A stretch of DNA of 64,000 nt, from the NCBI GenBank assembly GCA_018434685.1, contig JAHDOV010000013.1:62001-126000 (forward strand), given 5' to 3'. Shown here one piece after another: positions 33,664 to 42,730 of this stretch (position 1 is the first letter of the stretch; each line of letters begins with the position of its first letter). A model generated the notes under the pieces. That model did not search any database and was not told the DNA's origin. It was given only the letters and a program-made list of their open reading frames with translations. Made by a program: the position numbers and the translations under genes. This DNA comes from Deltaproteobacteria bacterium (GTDB taxonomy: Bacteria > Desulfobacterota > Desulfomonilia > UBA1062).

Positions 33664-34040
33664 TCAGGATCTCTTTTCATTCCCCTCCTGAAAAGACAGA
33701 TCATCCCCCATCTGGAGCTTCAGCTTCTCGAACTCACCCAGGTCCCACTGCAGGTCCATTTCTTCAAACATAACACGGGCCTTTTCAAGGTATTCCTCGG
33801 CCTTGAGGCCGTCCAGTTCTTTGTGCTTGCTCCTGGGCTCCAGCAGTCGCCCATGAACGTGTCGATGGTGCCTCCGTGCTGCTCGATGCACTCACCCATG
33901 AAGCGAAAGCACTCGTTCATGATCTCGCTCACCTCTTCCGGGTCCAGCCTCTCGCTCATGGCCGTGAACCCACAGATGTCGGCGAACATCACGGTGACGA
34001 GCCTGCGTTCGGACTCAATGGTCGGCGTGATCTCGCTCAT
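33664..34040 (-). pseudogene. Remnant of a class III nucleotidyl cyclase/TPR protein with internal deletion
   Basis: The first part (34040 to about 33840) encodes ESERRLVTVMFADICGFTAM through FMGDC, nearly identical to the start of the intact neighbour at 34142-37297. The frame then breaks. In another frame the text resumes as a typical C-terminal TPR end (EEYLEKARVMFEEMDLQW, ending at 33664). About a thousand codons, including the rest of the cyclase, the ATPase and most of the TPR arm, are missing. The C-terminal remnant differs from the neighbour's end, so the ancestor was a paralogue. A good AAGGAGAAG ribosome site remains before its ATG. Confidence 0.75.
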
Positions 34041-34141: not shown

Positions 34142-37100
34142 CTACAGGGTCTCCATCCTCTTTCGTGCCTCCTGGGCACGGGCAAGCCAGCAGCTCTTCG
34201 GGGTTACGTTCATCTCGTGAAAGATGGCCTCCGATTTCTTCAGGTGCGCCAGCGCCTCCTCCTTCATGCCGGCATCGGTATAGAGTTCTCCAAGACAGAG
34301 ATGCGCCAGAGCTTCTGAGGAAACCAGGCCCAGTTCCTGTGCGATCGTCAAGCCCTGCAGGATATACTCATGAGCCTCATCAAAATGTTGCATCCCCTCT
34401 TCCCGCAGTATCCAACCGAATGAAACAAGGAATTTTCCCTCGTAACCTTTTTGATGATATGTCCGGGATAGTTCCACGGCCTGGGTAATATATTTCCTGG
34501 CCTTTTCGAAATCACGTTGTGCTGCATAAATTAATGCCAAATCTCTATAGAGAATAGTGAGCGTCACTGGTAAGCTAAGACTCTCGGCGAGTTCGACCGA
34601 TTTTTCCGCATGGCGTTGTGCCTGACTATAATCGCCGGTAATATAATATCCTTCACTCAGGATTAAATATCCAAACCCCACCATCAATGGCGATCCGGTC
34701 TTTTCAAAACAGTCCAAGGATTTCGCTGCATGGTGGAGACAACTGTCTGCATCACCTTCCTGATACGACAGGACAGCGTGCCCCATTTCCACGAAACCGA
34801 TCCCGAACTTATCATCGATGGCAGAGGCATTCTGAATGCCCTTTTCGTATAAGGTCTTCCCCTTCTCAAGTCTGCCGAGCCAGGCATGTGCCATGAGACA
34901 GTATCCGCTGAGCTGTGAATACACATTTATACCGCCAATAAAAAGATCCTTTGCACGATTCTTGTCCTCTAGGAGTTGAATAGCTTTTCCAGTGATCTCC
35001 GCCAATTTCCTGTAGTCGCCCGAGAACCAGCAGGTAACTGAGACATCCATGGCGCATTGGGCCAGGACATCGATGGCCTCTATCTTTTCCGCTGTTATGA
35101 AGCACTTTTCCATGTACTCCATGGCGAGAACAGAATCTCCCTTGAGCGTATGGTAGTGCCCCAGCATGTTGTATGCCGTGGCGAGGCTCTTGTCGTCTCC
35201 AGCCTCCCGGGCGAGTTTCTCCTGGTCTTCAAGCATCTCCCTGCTTCCCTCAGGGTACCCGAGCACCATGAGGGTCGCTGCGAGGTTTTCAAGAAGCTCT
35301 CCCTTTTCCTGTCTGTTTTCCATGGTATCGGGCCGTGCATCGACGATCCGCACGGCCTCTCTGTAGAGCCTGACCGCCTCCCAGTTGGAGAATTTTTTTG
35401 CAGCCTTGTCTGCCGAGCGTTTCAGGTATTTGAGCGCCTTGTCCTGGTTGCTGCTGAGGGAATAATGGTAGGCGAGCATCTCGTAGAATTCCTCCAGCCG
35501 GTCTGCATAGAGCTGCTCGATGGCCCGGCCCACCTGCCCGTGGAGCTCCCTCCTCTTCTTGAACAGGAGACCGGCATAGGCAACCTCCTGGGTGAGGGCA
35601 TGCTTGAAGATGTACTCCAGCTCGGGGAAGATGCACTTCTCATAGATGAGCTCGAGCTCCTGCAGGTTCATCAGCAGGGTTTTCAGCCCTGCACGCAGAC
35701 TGGTGACGTTCTCCAGGACACGGTACGCAAACTCCCTGCCGATGACCGAGGCCACCTGCACGACCTGCCTGAGGTTTTCCTCCAGGCGGTCAAGCCGGGC
35801 TGCGATGATGCCCTGGATCGTTTCGGGCACCTGAATCGCCTGCGAGATGCCGGAGAGTGAATACCTGTTCCCCTCCTTGACGATAAGACTGTTTTCCACA
35901 AGATTGCAGGTGAGCTCCTCCATGAACAGGGGATTGCCTGCAGCCCTTTCAACGATGAGGTCGATCAGTTCTGGTGCCACCTCTCCGCCGGCAAGGATCG
36001 CCCGGACCAGTTCCTCGCTCGACTTTTTCTGGAGCTGACCCACTCTGACCTGGGTGTAGTAGGTCTTGCTCACCCAGGCGGGTGTGTATTCCGGCCGGTA
36101 CAGGAGGATGAGAAGAATCCGTGCACCCGGCAGGAAATTGATCAGGTAGGAAAGGAATTCTTCCGAGGTCCTGTCTATCCAGTGAAGGTCTTCCACGACT
36201 ATGATTAGCGGCCCTGCCTGGCTCTGGGCAAATAACAAGAGCCTGATGGCCTCGAATATTCTCTCTCTCCGTACCCGCGGCTCCAGGTCGCGATATGTCT
36301 CATCCTCCACGGGCAGGGAAAATACCTCATGAATCGGGGGTTCGATATCTTCTGGGATTGTATTGAGTGCCTCTATTCGAGCATTGATTTTTGCCTTGAT
36401 TCGAGCCTCTGTATCGTCTTCTCGAATCTCGAAGTAATCTTTCAAGATATCCAGAACAGGGAGGTAGGCGATCGCTTCACCATAGTGCAGGCATCCTCCT
36501 TCGAGACAGAGGTATTCATTGGGAGGGAGAGCTCCTCTGAACTCGCAAACCAGCCTGCTTTTCCCAACTCCAGGCTCACCCACCACCCCCACCACCTGGC
36601 CGTGGCACTGCTCCACTTCGTCGAGGCATTCCGCGAGTTGGCCGATTTCCGGGCTTCTCCCCACAAACGGGGTCAACCCCTTGTACAGGCAGGCATCGAC
36701 CCTGGTTTTCACCTGCCTGGTACCGAGCACCCTGCAGGCCAGGACCGGGTGCTCCCTGCCCTTGACCTGAATTTCCCCCAGAGGCTCGAAGGCGAAGTAT
36801 CCCGCTGTCAGCCGGCAGGTGTTCTCGGCCGCCACAACAGTGCCTGGACCTGCAGCATCCGCGAGCCTCGAGGCCAGGTTCACGGTATCTCCCATGACCG
36901 TGAAATCCTGTCTGGTATCGCTCCCCATCATCCCGGCGATGACCGGACCGGTGTTGATCCCGATGTGGATATCCAGCGGATGAGGCAGGTTCCTCTCACG
37001 ATTGAACACCTGGATGCTGTTTCTCAGTTCCAGGGCGGTATCGATGGCCCTGTGGGGGGCATCTTCGAGCGCCCTGCGAGCGCCGAACAGGGCCATCACG

Positions 37101-37297
37101 CAATCGCCCATGAACTTGTCGATGCTGCCGCCGTGCCGCTCGATGCACTCCCCCATCAGGCGGAAGCACTCATTCATGATCTCGCTCAGCTCTTCCGGGT
37201 CCAGCTTCTCGCTCATGGCCGTGAACCCACAGATGTCGGCAAACATCACCGTGACGAGCCTGCGCTCGGACTCCATGGAGATCGTGTCTTCGCTCAT
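34142..37297 (-). CDS. Class III adenylate/guanylate cyclase fused to AAA-type ATPase and TPR arm
   Basis: This 1051-residue soluble signalling protein has a class III cyclase at about 12-190, with FADICGFT and FMGDCVMALFG (the two metal Asp) and VMGDTVNLASR (Asn/Arg transition-state residues), so it looks catalytically competent. A P-loop NTPase follows with GRSPEIGQL, GEPGVGKSRLV and LIIVVEDLHWID. About 400 residues of TPR-like helices end the protein. Such proteins are thought to couple ligand sensing by the arm to cyclase output. It is followed by a gutted paralogue 101 bases downstream. A GAGGGA ribosome site precedes the ATG. Confidence 0.85.
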   Translation of the reverse strand: MSEDTISMESERRLVTVMFADICGFTAMSEKLDPEELSEIMNECFRLMGECIERHGGSIDKFMGDCVMALFGARRALEDAPHRAIDTALELRNSIQVFNRERNLPHPLDIHIGINTGPVIAGMMGSDTRQDFTVMGDTVNLASRLADAAGPGTVVAAENTCRLTAGYFAFEPLGEIQVKGREHPVLACRVLGTRQVKTRVDACLYKGLTPFVGRSPEIGQLAECLDEVEQCHGQVVGVVGEPGVGKSRLVCEFRGALPPNEYLCLEGGCLHYGEAIAYLPVLDILKDYFEIREDDTEARIKAKINARIEALNTIPEDIEPPIHEVFSLPVEDETYRDLEPRVRRERIFEAIRLLLFAQSQAGPLIIVVEDLHWIDRTSEEFLSYLINFLPGARILLILLYRPEYTPAWVSKTYYTQVRVGQLQKKSSEELVRAILAGGEVAPELIDLIVERAAGNPLFMEELTCNLVENSLIVKEGNRYSLSGISQAIQVPETIQGIIAARLDRLEENLRQVVQVASVIGREFAYRVLENVTSLRAGLKTLLMNLQELELIYEKCIFPELEYIFKHALTQEVAYAGLLFKKRRELHGQVGRAIEQLYADRLEEFYEMLAYHYSLSSNQDKALKYLKRSADKAAKKFSNWEAVRLYREAVRIVDARPDTMENRQEKGELLENLAATLMVLGYPEGSREMLEDQEKLAREAGDDKSLATAYNMLGHYHTLKGDSVLAMEYMEKCFITAEKIEAIDVLAQCAMDVSVTCWFSGDYRKLAEITGKAIQLLEDKNRAKDLFIGGINVYSQLSGYCLMAHAWLGRLEKGKTLYEKGIQNASAIDDKFGIGFVEMGHAVLSYQEGDADSCLHHAAKSLDCFEKTGSPLMVGFGYLILSEGYYITGDYSQAQRHAEKSVELAESLSLPVTLTILYRDLALIYAAQRDFEKARKYITQAVELSRTYHQKGYEGKFLVSFGWILREEGMQHFDEAHEYILQGLTIAQELGLVSSEALAHLCLGELYTDAGMKEEALAHLKKSEAIFHEMNVTPKSCWLARAQEARKRMETL

Positions 37298-37883
37298 GAA
37301 GAGTCCCTCATGGGTATCGTTCTATCGTAACGCTCTCTTCTCCCTGGTGCTCTCCACGTGAAGCGCTGAAAATACTGTCCGTCTCTGAAGCACCGACAGG
37401 TGCGGTGCTTTCGTGCAACCGCTGTCGATTCCGCGCCGGCAGAAAGAAGAGAACATGAAATAACCAAGTGATACCAGTGCAGGAATATCTTTGATGTGCC
37501 AATAACTGATGAGGTATTCTAAAAATTATCAAGCTATATAGTATCAGGGAAAACCAGGAAATCAAGTGCCACGCACAGATACGATGAGAATCATGAGCGT
37601 ATTGATCATTGTCGTGGTGAAATCGTCATTCTTCGCGGTTCACTCACACTAATCCCCCTCAGAGGCCACGGTGCCCTCATGGACAGGTTGATTTCTCTCA
37701 GGACGAAGTTATTATGTATCGCAGTTCCCTAGGGGCACGTTGACTCACCCCTGTGTTCATAAGGGCATAAGCATCGGTTTTTACATCTTTTCACCAGGTA
37801 GTTCTTCAACCGGGAAACGTCTTCGCGATCTGATCAGACCATGGGACACCCGTATAGAGAGACAAAGGGAGGGACCAGAAACC
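37298..37883. other. Intergenic region between divergent cyclase and flavoprotein genes
   Basis: This 586-base stretch has no convincing gene. It holds the hairpin AAGCACCG/CGGTGCTT (37388-37395, 37403-37410) with a 7-base loop, and an AT-rich stretch around 37520-37550. A promoter for the flavoprotein operon is listed separately. Confidence 0.5.
37688..37715 (+). promoter_or_regulatory. Candidate promoter of the flavoprotein/ferredoxin/ATC-hydrolase operon
   Basis: TTGATT (37688-37693), a 16-base spacer and TATTAT (37710-37715) give a good sigma-70 match. The leader to the ATG at 37884 would be about 160 nt. It contains AGGGG/CCCCT (about 37731-37752), a possible small hairpin. Confidence 0.45.
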
Positions 37884-39656
37884 ATGACCGAGCATGTTCG
37901 CACCGAGGTGCTGGTGATCGGCGGAGGCGGAGCAGGCTTCAGGGCGGCCATTGCCGCACGGCACAGCGGTGCTAGGGTTCTCCTGCTGAGCAAGGGGCCC
38001 CTGGGGAGGTGCGGAGCCACCCCCATGGCCGGTGCGGACTTCACCCTGGACGGCAGGAGCATGCACGAACTCGGCCGCGACGGCGACCTGAACGACAGCA
38101 GGGAAAAGGTGTTCAACGATATCGTGACCCAGGGCTACTACCTCAACAACCAGAAACTGGCAGAACACTATGTACATACCGCCCCGCTGCTTTTGAGAGA
38201 TCTCCTGGACTGGGGGCTGAAGATCATGCTCTCGGATCAGCGTGCCGTCATCACCAGCGGGCTCCACATCATGGATGTGCTCCTGAGGAAGGCACGCTCT
38301 GTGGGCGTGGAGATGCGCGAAGATATCATGGCACTCGACCTCATCACAAATGGCGGCGCCATTGCCGGGGTGCTCGCGCTCGATGTGAGGAGCGGCGAGT
38401 TCATCCGCATCGCGGCCTCTGCCGTGGTAATCACCACCGGTGGCTGGCACAAGGCCTACTGGCCGAATACCGGCATGCGGGATCTCTCGGGTGACGGGAT
38501 CGCCATGGCGCACCGAGCCGGGGCGCTCATCGGGAACATGGAGTTTGTCACGTTCGCCTGCAACATCATGCTCGATCCCCCCATGTGGCGGGGAAGCCTC
38601 GCGCCCTATGTGCTGAGCCTGGTCTGCGGCGGCAGCCTCACCAACAACTGCGGCGAGGAGATCCTCGCGCCGTATGACCCGGTTGTCGTGAAGACGGGGA
38701 CCACCACCGAATGGAACAAGAGCTTCGTCTCCCATGCGACCGCCAGGGAGGTGCGCCTGGGCAAGGGATTCAGAAATGGCGGGGTACACTACAGCCGCGG
38801 TGACGTCTCCTGGGAGGTCATCAAGCTGGTTGCCTCCATCACGTTTCCCGGATGGAAATACAAGGCCATGGACCTCACTGAATGGGGCAGGATGCTCGAG
38901 GCGAACGAACCCGTCGAGGTCGGCCCTGCCGTGGAATACTTCGACGGGGGGATCGTCGTGAATGAGCGGTTCGAGACCGCCATACCCGGGCTCTTTGCCG
39001 CGGGTGAGTGCTGTCTCGGCCCATTCGGCGCCAACAGGATCTTCTCAGCCATCACCGAGATCCTCGTACAGGGCAGGGATGCAGGGGAACACGCAGCGCA
39101 CTATGCGTTGACCGAAGGTGGTGCCCAGCCTCCGATTGCAGGATTCGAGGCACTCGAGAAGAAGGCTCTGCTGCCCCTTGCCCGTAACAACGAGGTGCGC
39201 CCCGCCTTCCTGAGACGGGAACTCCAGCTCAGGGCACAGCGCCACCTGGGACCCATACGGAACAAGAACGAGCTGGAGGAGTTCATCATATACCTGAGGG
39301 GCATGAAACAGAACCACCTGCCGCACCTGGGCACAGCCTCGTCAGGCAGGGTGTACAACAAGGAGTGGATCGACTGCCTCGAGCTGGGCGACCTGGTGCA
39401 CCTCCTGGAGGCCTCGGCCAGGTGCGCCCTGGCCCGCACCGAGAGCAGGGGGGTCCACTTCAGGGAGGACTTTCCCGTGTGTGACAATGACCGATGGCTC
39501 GTCGAGAGCATCGTTGAGTACGCAGAAGGTGACCCCAAGGTGTGCACACGGCCGGTCACAGCGACAACGATGTCGCCGCCCGGGGGAAAGATGCCGTATC
39601 TCGACATGATGAAGAAGATGATGCAGTCACATTCCGACACCGGGGGCATGCACTGA
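37884..39656 (+). CDS. Cytosolic succinate-dehydrogenase-like flavoprotein subunit, divergent
   Basis: This 590-residue FAD oxidoreductase starts at the ATG after GGGAGGG. The FAD site is EVLVIGGGGAGFRAAIAA, the second FAD segment is GLFAAGECC, and ALARTESRGVHFREDFP is the C-terminal signature of SdhA/FrdA/aspartate oxidase proteins. The usual substrate-site HPT segment of succinate dehydrogenase is not apparent (the region reads EFVTFACNIMLDPP), so succinate or fumarate is unlikely. No Tat signal is present. It heads a three-gene operon with a short [2Fe-2S] protein and an ATC-hydrolase-like protein, so it is probably a cytosolic redox enzyme with its own electron carrier. Confidence 0.8.
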   Translation: MTEHVRTEVLVIGGGGAGFRAAIAARHSGARVLLLSKGPLGRCGATPMAGADFTLDGRSMHELGRDGDLNDSREKVFNDIVTQGYYLNNQKLAEHYVHTAPLLLRDLLDWGLKIMLSDQRAVITSGLHIMDVLLRKARSVGVEMREDIMALDLITNGGAIAGVLALDVRSGEFIRIAASAVVITTGGWHKAYWPNTGMRDLSGDGIAMAHRAGALIGNMEFVTFACNIMLDPPMWRGSLAPYVLSLVCGGSLTNNCGEEILAPYDPVVVKTGTTTEWNKSFVSHATAREVRLGKGFRNGGVHYSRGDVSWEVIKLVASITFPGWKYKAMDLTEWGRMLEANEPVEVGPAVEYFDGGIVVNERFETAIPGLFAAGECCLGPFGANRIFSAITEILVQGRDAGEHAAHYALTEGGAQPPIAGFEALEKKALLPLARNNEVRPAFLRRELQLRAQRHLGPIRNKNELEEFIIYLRGMKQNHLPHLGTASSGRVYNKEWIDCLELGDLVHLLEASARCALARTESRGVHFREDFPVCDNDRWLVESIVEYAEGDPKVCTRPVTATTMSPPGGKMPYLDMMKKMMQSHSDTGGMH

Positions 39657-39697
39657 GGCATGAACCGGGCGCTGTGAGCGAAAACAAGGGGTGAACA

Positions 39698-40054
39698 ATG
39701 AGCAAACATTCCGTACAGGTAAAGGTCTTCCGGTACGATCCGGCCAGGGATGCAGATCCGTATTACCTGGAGTACGCAATCCCATTCGAACCTCGCATGA
39801 GCGCCATGAATGCGCTCGACTTCATTTATCACAATATCGACAGTACGCTGTCCTACTATGACCATGCAGGGTGTTCGCTTGGTATCTGCGGACGCTGCGT
39901 GGGGAGGGTGAACGGAAAGACGGTCCTCCTGTGCCAGACAGCGATAACCGGCGATACCGTGATCGAACCGGTCAGCACCGGGAGGACCCTGAAGGATCTC
40001 GTCATGAGAAAAGGTAGGCGAGATGACGCTGAACCCACAAAGGATACGGATTGA
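39698..40054 (+). CDS. [2Fe-2S] protein equal to the N-terminal half of SdhB/FrdB
   Basis: This 118-residue protein resembles the N-terminal plant-type ferredoxin domain of succinate dehydrogenase iron-sulfur subunits. VKVFRYDPARDADPYYLEY opens the fold, and CSLGICGRCVGRVNGK with the later Cys in LLCQT gives the four cluster ligands. The C-terminal domain with the [4Fe-4S] and [3Fe-4S] clusters is absent. It is therefore a one-cluster electron carrier, most likely for the flavoprotein 41 bases upstream. An AAGGGGTG ribosome site precedes the ATG. Confidence 0.85.
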   Translation: MSKHSVQVKVFRYDPARDADPYYLEYAIPFEPRMSAMNALDFIYHNIDSTLSYYDHAGCSLGICGRCVGRVNGKTVLLCQTAITGDTVIEPVSTGRTLKDLVMRKGRRDDAEPTKDTD

Positions 40055-40084
40055 GCATTGGTCTTATTCTTGGAGGTGAAAACC

Positions 40085-40810
40085 ATGGTCACAAGGATTC
40101 AAAACGGTTTCAGGCCGGAACACCATGCCCTGCTCTTTGCGTGGATGGTCAGAGAGACACTCGCGCAGGTTGGCGAGGAGGATGCATCGCCGGTACTGCA
40201 CGCAGCAGTGCGACGGTATGGGGAGCAGCGCGGGCACCGCATGGCACTGCGGGCACAGGCCAACGGCCACGACCTTTCCATGCTGAGCTGGCTCGCGTAT
40301 CCGGAATGGCAGGCCGGTAAAGGAGAGATGGTGACGGACATCGTCCGGAAGCGGCCGAACGTGCGGATCAGCATTCCCCTGTGCCCCTGGTACACTGTCT
40401 GGAGGGAACAGGGACTCCTGTCCTGTGGAACCTACTACTGTGAAGAGATAGACAAATCAGTGGTCCGTGGCTTCAACCCGGAACTGAGCATCGAGGTGAA
40501 CGAGATCAAGCCCCATGGGGCCCATGCATGCGACATGGTCTTCCGCGGGGTGGATCTTACCCCCTTCGTCATGCTCAAGTACGTGCTGCGTAAGTTCATC
40601 GCTGCAAGAAAGGATTCCGTCATGCCCTGGGAGTATCATACCGGTCATGTCTACAAGACCATTGCCGAAGAGATCACCCATGCCTTTGGCGCAAGGGGGG
40701 AAGCAGCCTGTAACGCTGCGCTCGAGATCTTTTCACAGAGGTATGGTCAGGATAGCGCCCGCACAGTCCGGAGTTACCTGAAAACGGACTTTGACCGGCT
40801 GCCGGCATGA
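40085..40810 (+). CDS. ATC-hydrolase-family protein (L-2-amino-thiazoline-4-carboxylate hydrolase-like)
   Basis: This 241-residue protein starts at the ATG after GGAGGTG. The core CPWYTVWREQGLLSCGTYYC followed by EEIDKSVVRGFNPEL fits the ATC hydrolase-like family, named after the enzyme that opens L-2-amino-thiazoline-4-carboxylate on the way to cysteine in Pseudomonas. Most relatives in anaerobes have no known substrate. Placement behind a flavoprotein and a [2Fe-2S] carrier suggests a reductase/hydrolase pair acting on a small ring compound. That is inference. Confidence 0.7.
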   Translation: MVTRIQNGFRPEHHALLFAWMVRETLAQVGEEDASPVLHAAVRRYGEQRGHRMALRAQANGHDLSMLSWLAYPEWQAGKGEMVTDIVRKRPNVRISIPLCPWYTVWREQGLLSCGTYYCEEIDKSVVRGFNPELSIEVNEIKPHGAHACDMVFRGVDLTPFVMLKYVLRKFIAARKDSVMPWEYHTGHVYKTIAEEITHAFGARGEAACNAALEIFSQRYGQDSARTVRSYLKTDFDRLPA

Positions 40811-41182: not shown

Positions 41183-42730
41183 TTAGACTTTTTCCTTGGC
41201 CGCGTTTGTCCCGGCGATCCGGCCGAAGACCACGCAGTCTGGGATTGCATTGCCGCCAAGGCGGTTCGACCCGTGAATACCTCCTGTCACCTCGCCTGCC
41301 GCATAGAACTTGGGAATCGGGGCACCCCAGATATCGATCACCTGGGCCATCTTGTTGATCCTCACCCCGCCCATGCAGTGGTGGACAGCTGGCCACTGCG
41401 CGATGGCATAGTAAGGACCTTCCTCGATGGTGAGCATTTTCTCGGTAACAGGCTTGTTGAAATCCGGATCCTTCTTGTCCTTGAGGTACTGATTGTGCTT
41501 CTTGATCGTGTCCTCGAGGTTTGCGGGAGGGACACCGATCTTCTGGGCCAGTTCGGCCAGGGTATCTGCCTTCACGAAACGTCCGCGGGCCATGCCCTTT
41601 TCGACCTCTTCCTTGGTCCCCATCTTGGGAATCATCGCCTCGTTGAAGATGGAATAGGTGGGCTTTTTGCCGGTCTTGATCTCTGCATACGAGACGACAT
41701 CGCGGCGTTCGAGCTCGCTCACGAAGCGCTTGCCGTTCACATCCACGTAGACAATGCCGTAGCCAGGCCCCCGGAAGGGATAGACCGCCGGTGAATCCAG
41801 AACCCCCTTTTCCGGCTCTGCAAACGGGTAGAGCTGGATGAATGCCAGGTGCAGGGTATCGGCCCCGATTGCCTGGGCATAGCGGATCATCTCGCCGGTT
41901 GCACCCCGGTGATTGGTGCAGTTGAATTCGGGAACGATGCTCGGATTGAATGCCTGCCGCATCTTGATATCCCAGCTGAATCCGCCGGAGCACAGGATCA
42001 GCGCCCGCTGGATCTTGATGTTCTTGGTTGCCCCGCCCTCTTTCACCTCGATGCCGAGGACAGGTCCATCCGTACTCTCACGCCAGATCCACGAGACCTC
42101 GGCCTTGCGGCGCATGGTTGCCCCGCCTTTTTCGGCGATCTTTTTAAGCGCCTCAGTGTAGCAACGGCCGACCCCCTCGACACAGGTATGGGTCCGGTAG
42201 GCCGAGTGACCGCCGGTACGGTTCAGGATATCACGCAGCTTCAAATCGCCATCGTCAATCATCCAGTTCAGCGCCGGGGTTGCCCCATCGGCCAGTATCC
42301 TGGCAAGTTCGGGGTCGCCGTAGAAATCGCCTCCCTTAACCGTGTCCTGGGTGTGGAGATCTATGCTGTCGTCACCCAGTTTGAGCTTCTCGCGGAGGTG
42401 AAGCTCGTCGTCCCATGAATTGTACTCGCCTCCGTTGATGACCGAGTTTCCGCCGTAGACCGGCATCTTCTCAAAAATGACTGCCTTCGCACCACCTTTC
42501 GAAGCCTCTGCTGCTGCTGCCAGTCCGGCAAACCCGGAACCGATCACTACCGTGTCCAGGGTCTCATCCCACTTCTGGGGGAGCACTTTCTTTTCGGCAG
42601 CATTGGCCTCGCCTTTGGAGAGATTCAGGGCCAGCGTACCGGTGGATGCTACAATACCGGCTGTCACAGCGCCCTTGAGTAATTCTCTCCGGGTTATTCC
42701 CCTTTTCTTCCCTTTGTCATCCTGCTTCAT
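41183..42730 (-). CDS. Tat-exported fumarate-reductase-like flavoprotein (second)
   Basis: This 515-residue FAD protein is of the same family as the one at 18449-19966. A twin-arginine signal (TRRELLKGAVTAG, cleavage near ANAAEK) opens it. The FAD site VVIGSGFAGLAAAAEA, the GKRFVSELERRD segment, VHHCMGG and GGIHGSNRLGGNA preserve the family's substrate and proton-transfer residues. No haem domain is fused. It likely reduces an unsaturated substrate in the periplasm with an external cytochrome donor. GGAGG precedes the ATG. It is transcribed alone. Confidence 0.8.
   Translation of the reverse strand: MKQDDKGKKRGITRRELLKGAVTAGIVASTGTLALNLSKGEANAAEKKVLPQKWDETLDTVVIGSGFAGLAAAAEASKGGAKAVIFEKMPVYGGNSVINGGEYNSWDDELHLREKLKLGDDSIDLHTQDTVKGGDFYGDPELARILADGATPALNWMIDDGDLKLRDILNRTGGHSAYRTHTCVEGVGRCYTEALKKIAEKGGATMRRKAEVSWIWRESTDGPVLGIEVKEGGATKNIKIQRALILCSGGFSWDIKMRQAFNPSIVPEFNCTNHRGATGEMIRYAQAIGADTLHLAFIQLYPFAEPEKGVLDSPAVYPFRGPGYGIVYVDVNGKRFVSELERRDVVSYAEIKTGKKPTYSIFNEAMIPKMGTKEEVEKGMARGRFVKADTLAELAQKIGVPPANLEDTIKKHNQYLKDKKDPDFNKPVTEKMLTIEEGPYYAIAQWPAVHHCMGGVRINKMAQVIDIWGAPIPKFYAAGEVTGGIHGSNRLGGNAIPDCVVFGRIAGTNAAKEKV

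Follow-up and report, generated by a model that had tools for sequence, protein, structure and literature searches.

A question of function

Three co-directional genes at positions 37884 to 40810 of the window (the whole 64,000-nucleotide stretch of contig JAHDOV010000013.1 that was analyzed) encode a flavoprotein, a small iron-sulfur protein, and a protein of the ATC hydrolase family. Their arrangement raises the question of whether the three products belong to a single system and, if they do, which compound that system would act upon.

Architecture of the gene unit

The three genes of the unit are real. They are separated by gaps of 41 and 30 bp, and a Shine-Dalgarno-like site precedes each of them (Table 1). 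An earlier note on this DNA had described an unusual system of three components, an anatomy that is borne out by the Pfam families of the products and by the conservation of the gene unit. The same note had placed the third protein in the thiazoline-carboxylate hydrolase family, which agrees with its match to PF14196 (66.8 bits against a curated Pfam cutoff of 28.1). The start of its gene is most likely ATG 40085, upstream of which the motif GGAGGTG stands, and not TTG 40058.

Table 1. Genes and putative ribosome-binding sites of the three-gene unit (window positions)
Feature	Coordinates	Strand	Basis
Gene 1 Shine-Dalgarno-like site, GGGAGGG	37867..37873	+	Sequence reading
Gene 1, flavoprotein of the complex II/L-aspartate oxidase superfamily, 590 aa	37884..39656	+	Pfam; alignment with E. 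coli FrdA, SdhA, and NadB
Gene 2 Shine-Dalgarno-like site, AAGGGGTG	39686..39693	+	Sequence reading
Gene 2, lone [2Fe-2S] protein, 118 aa	39698..40054	+	Fer2_3, 6.6e-21; alignment
Gene 3 Shine-Dalgarno site, GGAGGTG	40072..40078	+	Sequence reading; favors ATG 40085
Gene 3, PF14196 (ATC hydrolase family) protein, 241 aa	40085..40810	+	PF14196, 4.8e-18; predicted model

A gene for a Tat-signal, flavocytochrome c-like FAD protein (41183 to 42730, minus strand; TIGR01813, 404 bits) is convergent with the module. It was excluded from the unit because of this orientation and because it does not recur beside other modules; its product is probably another flavin reductase. Elsewhere in the window, a short open reading frame at 33720 to 34040 (minus strand) duplicates the first ~65 residues of the neighboring adenylate cyclase/AAA/TPR protein (34142 to 37297, minus strand) before the two diverge, as if the frame were a truncated or frameshifted second copy of that gene. 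The PADLOC defense library gave no match, and the sole match in the PHROGs phage library was a weakly informative one to the flavoprotein.

Conservation and distribution of the module

When 395 genomes from the phylum were searched with the flavoprotein, 14 of them, counting that of the window, contained close relatives, and a scan of GTDB contigs gave further loci, including some in MAGs of Bipolaricaulota, Abyssobacteria, and, as the one archaeon, Freyarchaeota. The comparison set, from which the window was excluded, consisted of 19 distinct loci with the same flavoprotein, hosted by Desulfomonile tiedjei, other deltaproteobacteria-type MAGs, and MAGs of the three lineages just named. In 19/19 of these loci, no more than about 7 kb separates a PF14196 gene from the flavoprotein gene, and a Fer2_3 gene is present in 17/19; of the two loci without one, L046 ends at a contig end and L134 has none detectable. 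Gene order is variable, with the PF14196 gene first, last, or placed upstream together with the ferredoxin gene, and D. tiedjei carries the two smaller components, ferredoxin and PF14196, fused as a single protein (PF13085, 3.2e-25; PF14196, 1.6e-37). Since the background density of PF14196 in module-bearing genomes is about one copy per 1.5 Mb, its arrangement with the flavoprotein is far beyond chance. Chance adjacency was also rejected by 14 control PF14196 loci from five module-bearing genomes, which are without such a flavoprotein, Fer2_3, or CyuA. The search for co-occurrence suggested by the earlier note, which would have abandoned the system had there been no conserved neighborhood, found the triad kept and its neighborhood strongly conserved.

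Five related loci outside the group (L037 to L041) pair SdhA-like flavoproteins with a lone Fer2_3 protein of ~105 to 165 aa, without PF14196 or CyuA, and apparently represent a wider class of two-gene flavoenzymes for which we know of no description. In the other genomes sampled from the genus and family to which the window belongs, the module was absent except for a divergent copy in one genome (G006). This patchy distribution suggests that the module is probably mobile. The window's genome (4.29 Mb) is assigned to the same class as genome G028, whose second contig matched the plasmid of D. tiedjei DSM 6799 at 100% identity over the 19 kb compared, which places the host in or close to Desulfomonilia.

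Pairwise distances between flavoproteins and between ferredoxins were correlated with an r of 0.89, compared with 0.22 for flavoproteins and PF14196 proteins. The flavoprotein and ferredoxin therefore look like one enzyme, and the PF14196 protein like a faster-evolving or exchanged partner; tight coevolution of all three parts was rejected, as it holds only for the flavoprotein-ferredoxin pair. An AlphaFold model of the D. tiedjei fusion contained two good domains joined by a disordered linker (residues 98 to 130) with a pTM of 0.55, and so it lends no support to a fixed three-subunit packing.

The flavoprotein and its [2Fe-2S] partner

Gene 1 encodes FAD_binding_2 (PF00890, 5.8e-40) and Succ_DH_flav_C (PF02910, 1.4e-25) domains, and the closest solved structures are those of SdhA/FrdA, with L-aspartate oxidase next. 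When the module flavoproteins were aligned with E. coli FrdA, SdhA, and NadB, the FAD-linking His (FrdA His45, gene numbering) was Ala in all of them, and the FAD of the gene 1 product is predicted to be noncovalently bound. The succinate HPT segment, which the earlier note had found missing from the flavoprotein, is indeed replaced by FACN in the window; no module flavoprotein has a His at this position, and most of the main clade has FACN or FCCN. The Thr-Glu pair of FrdA is replaced in every module flavoprotein (by Ser and Leu in the window), the catalytic Arg288 is Lys in all of them (Lys279 in the window), and His356 is Glu throughout the main clade (Glu351 in the window), this second His being retained only in L036, L051, and L052. 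Arg385, the final substrate Arg of FrdA, is kept in all module flavoproteins. Together, these losses argue against a normal dicarboxylate site, whether for succinate, fumarate, or aspartate, and would leave one carboxylate anchor.

The gene 2 product consists of Fer2_3 alone and equals the front half of SdhB/FrdB, as had been read from the sequence earlier; a Pfam scan of its 118 aa did not find the 4Fe-4S/3Fe-4S half. Its cluster cysteines (Cys59, -64, -67, and -79) are invariant in an alignment of 18 homologs. A canonical succinate dehydrogenase/fumarate reductase or NadB was rejected because of the active-site residues together with this partial iron-sulfur subunit.

The PF14196 protein

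To our knowledge, only one member of PF14196 has been characterized, and it opens a thiazoline ring. The gene 3 product, modeled by AlphaFold with 17 homologs (pLDDT 79.5), is predicted to carry a V4R/TRAPP-like fold. Foldseek matched the model to TRAPPC3/Bet3 and to the phenol-sensor domains of PoxR, DmpR, and MopR, with a probability of 1.00 to TRAPPC3, DmpR, and PoxR but a best E value of only 1e-3 and a TM score (target) of about 0.5. The predicted fold agrees with a previous study in which the PF14196, V4R, and HNOB domains were linked by sequence and a three-Cys cluster was common to them (PMC5847659). A sequence search of the PDB with the gene 3 product gave no match. Its conserved residues are Cys100, Cys119, Asp123, and Cys149, and the pattern Cys-x18/19-Cys-x2/3-Asp...Cys is kept in 17/17 module PF14196 proteins despite a mean pairwise identity of about 26%, which indicates that the site is under constraint. 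The same low identity, taken with the weak codivergence described above, means that the module PF14196 proteins may serve different substrates or may not be hydrolases.

The window protein and its relative at L044 carry a C-terminal extension of ~60 aa. In the window protein, this C-terminal part matches the N-terminal helical half of the L007 homolog and represents a partial internal duplication, of a kind that the other module homologs do not have. Some genomes carry many PF14196 paralogs in unrelated contexts (11 copies in G116 and 6 in G054), and the name ATC hydrolase is unlikely to fit most of them.

Genes neighboring the module

A homolog of the L-cysteine desulfidase CyuA is encoded at the module in 8/19 of the other loci (L033, L034, L036, L044, L047, L132, L134, and L136). 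In six of the nine searched genomes with any PF03313 gene (G006, G028, G091, G116, G122, and G385), the sole such gene found adjoins the module. The residues Cys23, Glu25, and Arg223 and the cluster ligands Cys287/329/336 of Methanococcus maripaludis CyuA (PMC12647591) have equivalents in 8/8 of the module homologs. No CyuA was detectable in the window's genome with the L044 homolog as the query; a single PF03313 gene, on contig C52, was unmatched by this search.

An M20 amidohydrolase gene lies before or after the module in 6/19 loci (L033, L034, L044, L047, L134, and, by a local profile, L136), and none was seen beside the window's operon. M24 genes occur at L047 and L136, a RidA gene at L033, and, from sequence reading, TRAP, Liv, or peptide-type transporters in some loci. 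The earlier proposal that the substrate is a small ring compound or an amino acid derivative gains support from the CyuA and M20 genes of these other loci. URO-D family genes are found near the module at L044 (12693 to 15592), where a gene for a B12-binding protein accompanies them, and at L045 (9206 to 10132), L046 (7959 to 8951), and L050 (8785 to 9720), suggesting that certain variants of the pathway include methyl transfer. With these URO-D-type and corrinoid protein genes at some loci and aminotransferase genes at L045, the full pathways appear to vary by locus.

A possible route to cysteine

The reading that we favor, to which we give a probability of about one in three, is that of a mobile catabolic module of anaerobes in which a thiazoline-type ring is made by a redox reaction and opened by the PF14196 protein to yield cysteine. 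In its fuller form, which we offer more tentatively, this would be an undescribed anaerobic pathway in which a complex II-type flavoenzyme with a lone [2Fe-2S] protein acts on a thiazole or thiazolidine carboxylate, changing its degree of saturation, so that the PF14196 protein can open the ring and feed a cysteine desulfidase. The retained Arg would anchor one carboxylate of a substrate whose five-membered ring, derived from cysteine, the flavoprotein would oxidize or reduce. In the simplest version, the flavoprotein would oxidize a thiazolidine-4-carboxylate, as NadB oxidizes an amine; in an alternative version, it would reduce a thiazole-4-carboxylate. NadB is a precedent within the superfamily for C-N oxidation, and because of this precedent and the catabolic context we lean slightly, at little better than even odds, toward oxidation. 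The [2Fe-2S] protein would relay electrons between the flavoprotein and a soluble partner, the PF14196 protein would open the resulting delta2-thiazoline-4-carboxylate, the M20 enzyme would cleave the resulting N-acyl or carbamoyl cysteine, and CyuA would split cysteine into pyruvate, ammonia, and sulfide. Loci or genomes without CyuA would use the product otherwise; this includes the window's genome, where cysteine, if it is the product, would have a different use.

We infer this pathway from the neighboring genes and from two published reactions. The ATC hydrolase of Pseudomonas converts 2-amino-delta2-thiazoline-4-carboxylate to S-carbamyl-L-cysteine, from which an amidohydrolase then releases cysteine (PMC10821248), the same order of steps as that proposed here, and the conversion of thiazolidine-4-carboxylate to N-formylcysteine has been reported for bacteria and mitochondria (PMC9814826). 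The RidA gene of the D. tiedjei cluster fits the enamine products of CyuA. Counted against the pathway are the predicted fold of the PF14196 protein, which is that of ligand-binding V4R/TRAPP domains, the low identity and weak codivergence of the module PF14196 proteins, the presence of CyuA at 8 rather than all 19 of the loci, and the failure to detect CyuA in the window's genome or an M20 gene beside its operon. The link to cysteine also depends in part on a family name taken from one enzyme.

The fold is the starting point of the nearest competing explanation, a possible but doubtful one, in which the PF14196 protein would be no hydrolase but would belong to a three-subunit oxidoreductase for a small hydrophobic or aromatic monocarboxylate, as a V4R-type accessory subunit that binds the substrate or carries a metal. 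The Foldseek matches to TRAPPC3/Bet3 and the phenol sensors would suit such a role, as would the natural Fer2_3-PF14196 fusion of D. tiedjei and the three conserved Cys and Asp, which resemble those of related binding domains (PMC5847659). However, the PF14196 protein codiverges only weakly with the flavoprotein, the genes are up to several kilobases apart in L047 and L132, the floppy linker of the fusion model leaves its domains without fixed packing, and the adjoining CyuA and M20 genes suggest separate pathway enzymes. Those genes (the M20 genes being of the aminoacylase type), with the recurring M24 and RidA genes and the TRAP, Liv, or peptide-type transporters of some loci, would also accommodate a redox step on an open-chain compound, such as a dehydroamino acid or a mercapturate-like cysteine with an N-acyl group or an S substituent, with no thiazoline-type ring and with cysteine or another beta-eliminable amino acid as the end product. 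We consider this unlikely, as it leaves the universal PF14196 gene unexplained.

Less probable again is a reductase that dumps electrons onto an alpha,beta-unsaturated monocarboxylate, with no link to cysteine. Fumarate and urocanate reductases provide a precedent for it in the superfamily, and Lys279 could stand in for the proton-donating Arg, but the CyuA neighbors would then be coincidental, whereas their adjacency at 8 of 19 loci, in most searched genomes as the sole PF03313 gene found, is far above chance. That the flavoprotein is an ordinary variant of succinate dehydrogenase, fumarate reductase, or L-aspartate oxidase is very improbable. It shares their Pfam domains and fold family but falls far below the cutoffs of all equivalog models (152 bits against 452.75 for NadB); the His, Thr, Glu, and Arg of the dicarboxylate site, and in the main clade its second His, are replaced, and neither the 4Fe-4S/3Fe-4S half nor membrane anchors were seen.

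Comparison with known systems

Three orphan annotations, namely, a fumarate reductase-like flavoprotein, half of an SdhB, and an ATC hydrolase, are thus brought together in a single conserved unit, which at many loci is tied to a likely cysteine-yielding pathway. A route from a cysteine-derived ring to cysteine would provide a short, testable list of substrates for a fumarate reductase-like subfamily whose active site precludes that role, and it points to the release of sulfide from organic sulfur in anoxic sediments; D. tiedjei is a cultured host that carries the module. The earlier note knew of no described equivalent, and our literature search, which lay outside most subscription journals, likewise found no description of the triad or of a comparable thiazole or thiazoline flavoenzyme.

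The resemblance to complex II (SdhA-SdhB) lies in the FAD_binding_2 and Succ_DH_flav_C domains, in a [2Fe-2S] domain like the front half of SdhB, and in the substrate Arg. Unlike complex II, the module is without the His for covalent FAD, the HPT segment, and the Thr-Glu pair, has Lys where complex II has its catalytic Arg, lacks the 4Fe-4S/3Fe-4S half and the anchors, and includes an additional PF14196 protein. With NadB, the flavoprotein shares the superfamily, a predicted noncovalent FAD, and a precedent for amine-to-imine oxidation, but the residues of the dicarboxylate site are missing and a [2Fe-2S] partner is present. The Pseudomonas ATC pathway offers a PF14196 member, an amidohydrolase step, and cysteine as the product proposed here; no redox step has been described for it, whereas a flavoenzyme and a cysteine desulfidase extend the pathway proposed here, which would operate in anaerobes. 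E. coli cyuAP couples CyuA to a cysteine importer, whereas 8 of the 19 other module loci, whose CyuA homologs keep the reported catalytic residues, couple it to genes for putative redox and ring-opening functions. Finally, the V4R, HNOB, TRAPP/Bet3, and PoxR/DmpR domains share with the gene 3 product a predicted fold and a conserved Cys cluster, but, unlike the sensor and trafficking proteins that contain V4R/TRAPP domains, this protein would be a stand-alone metabolic partner.
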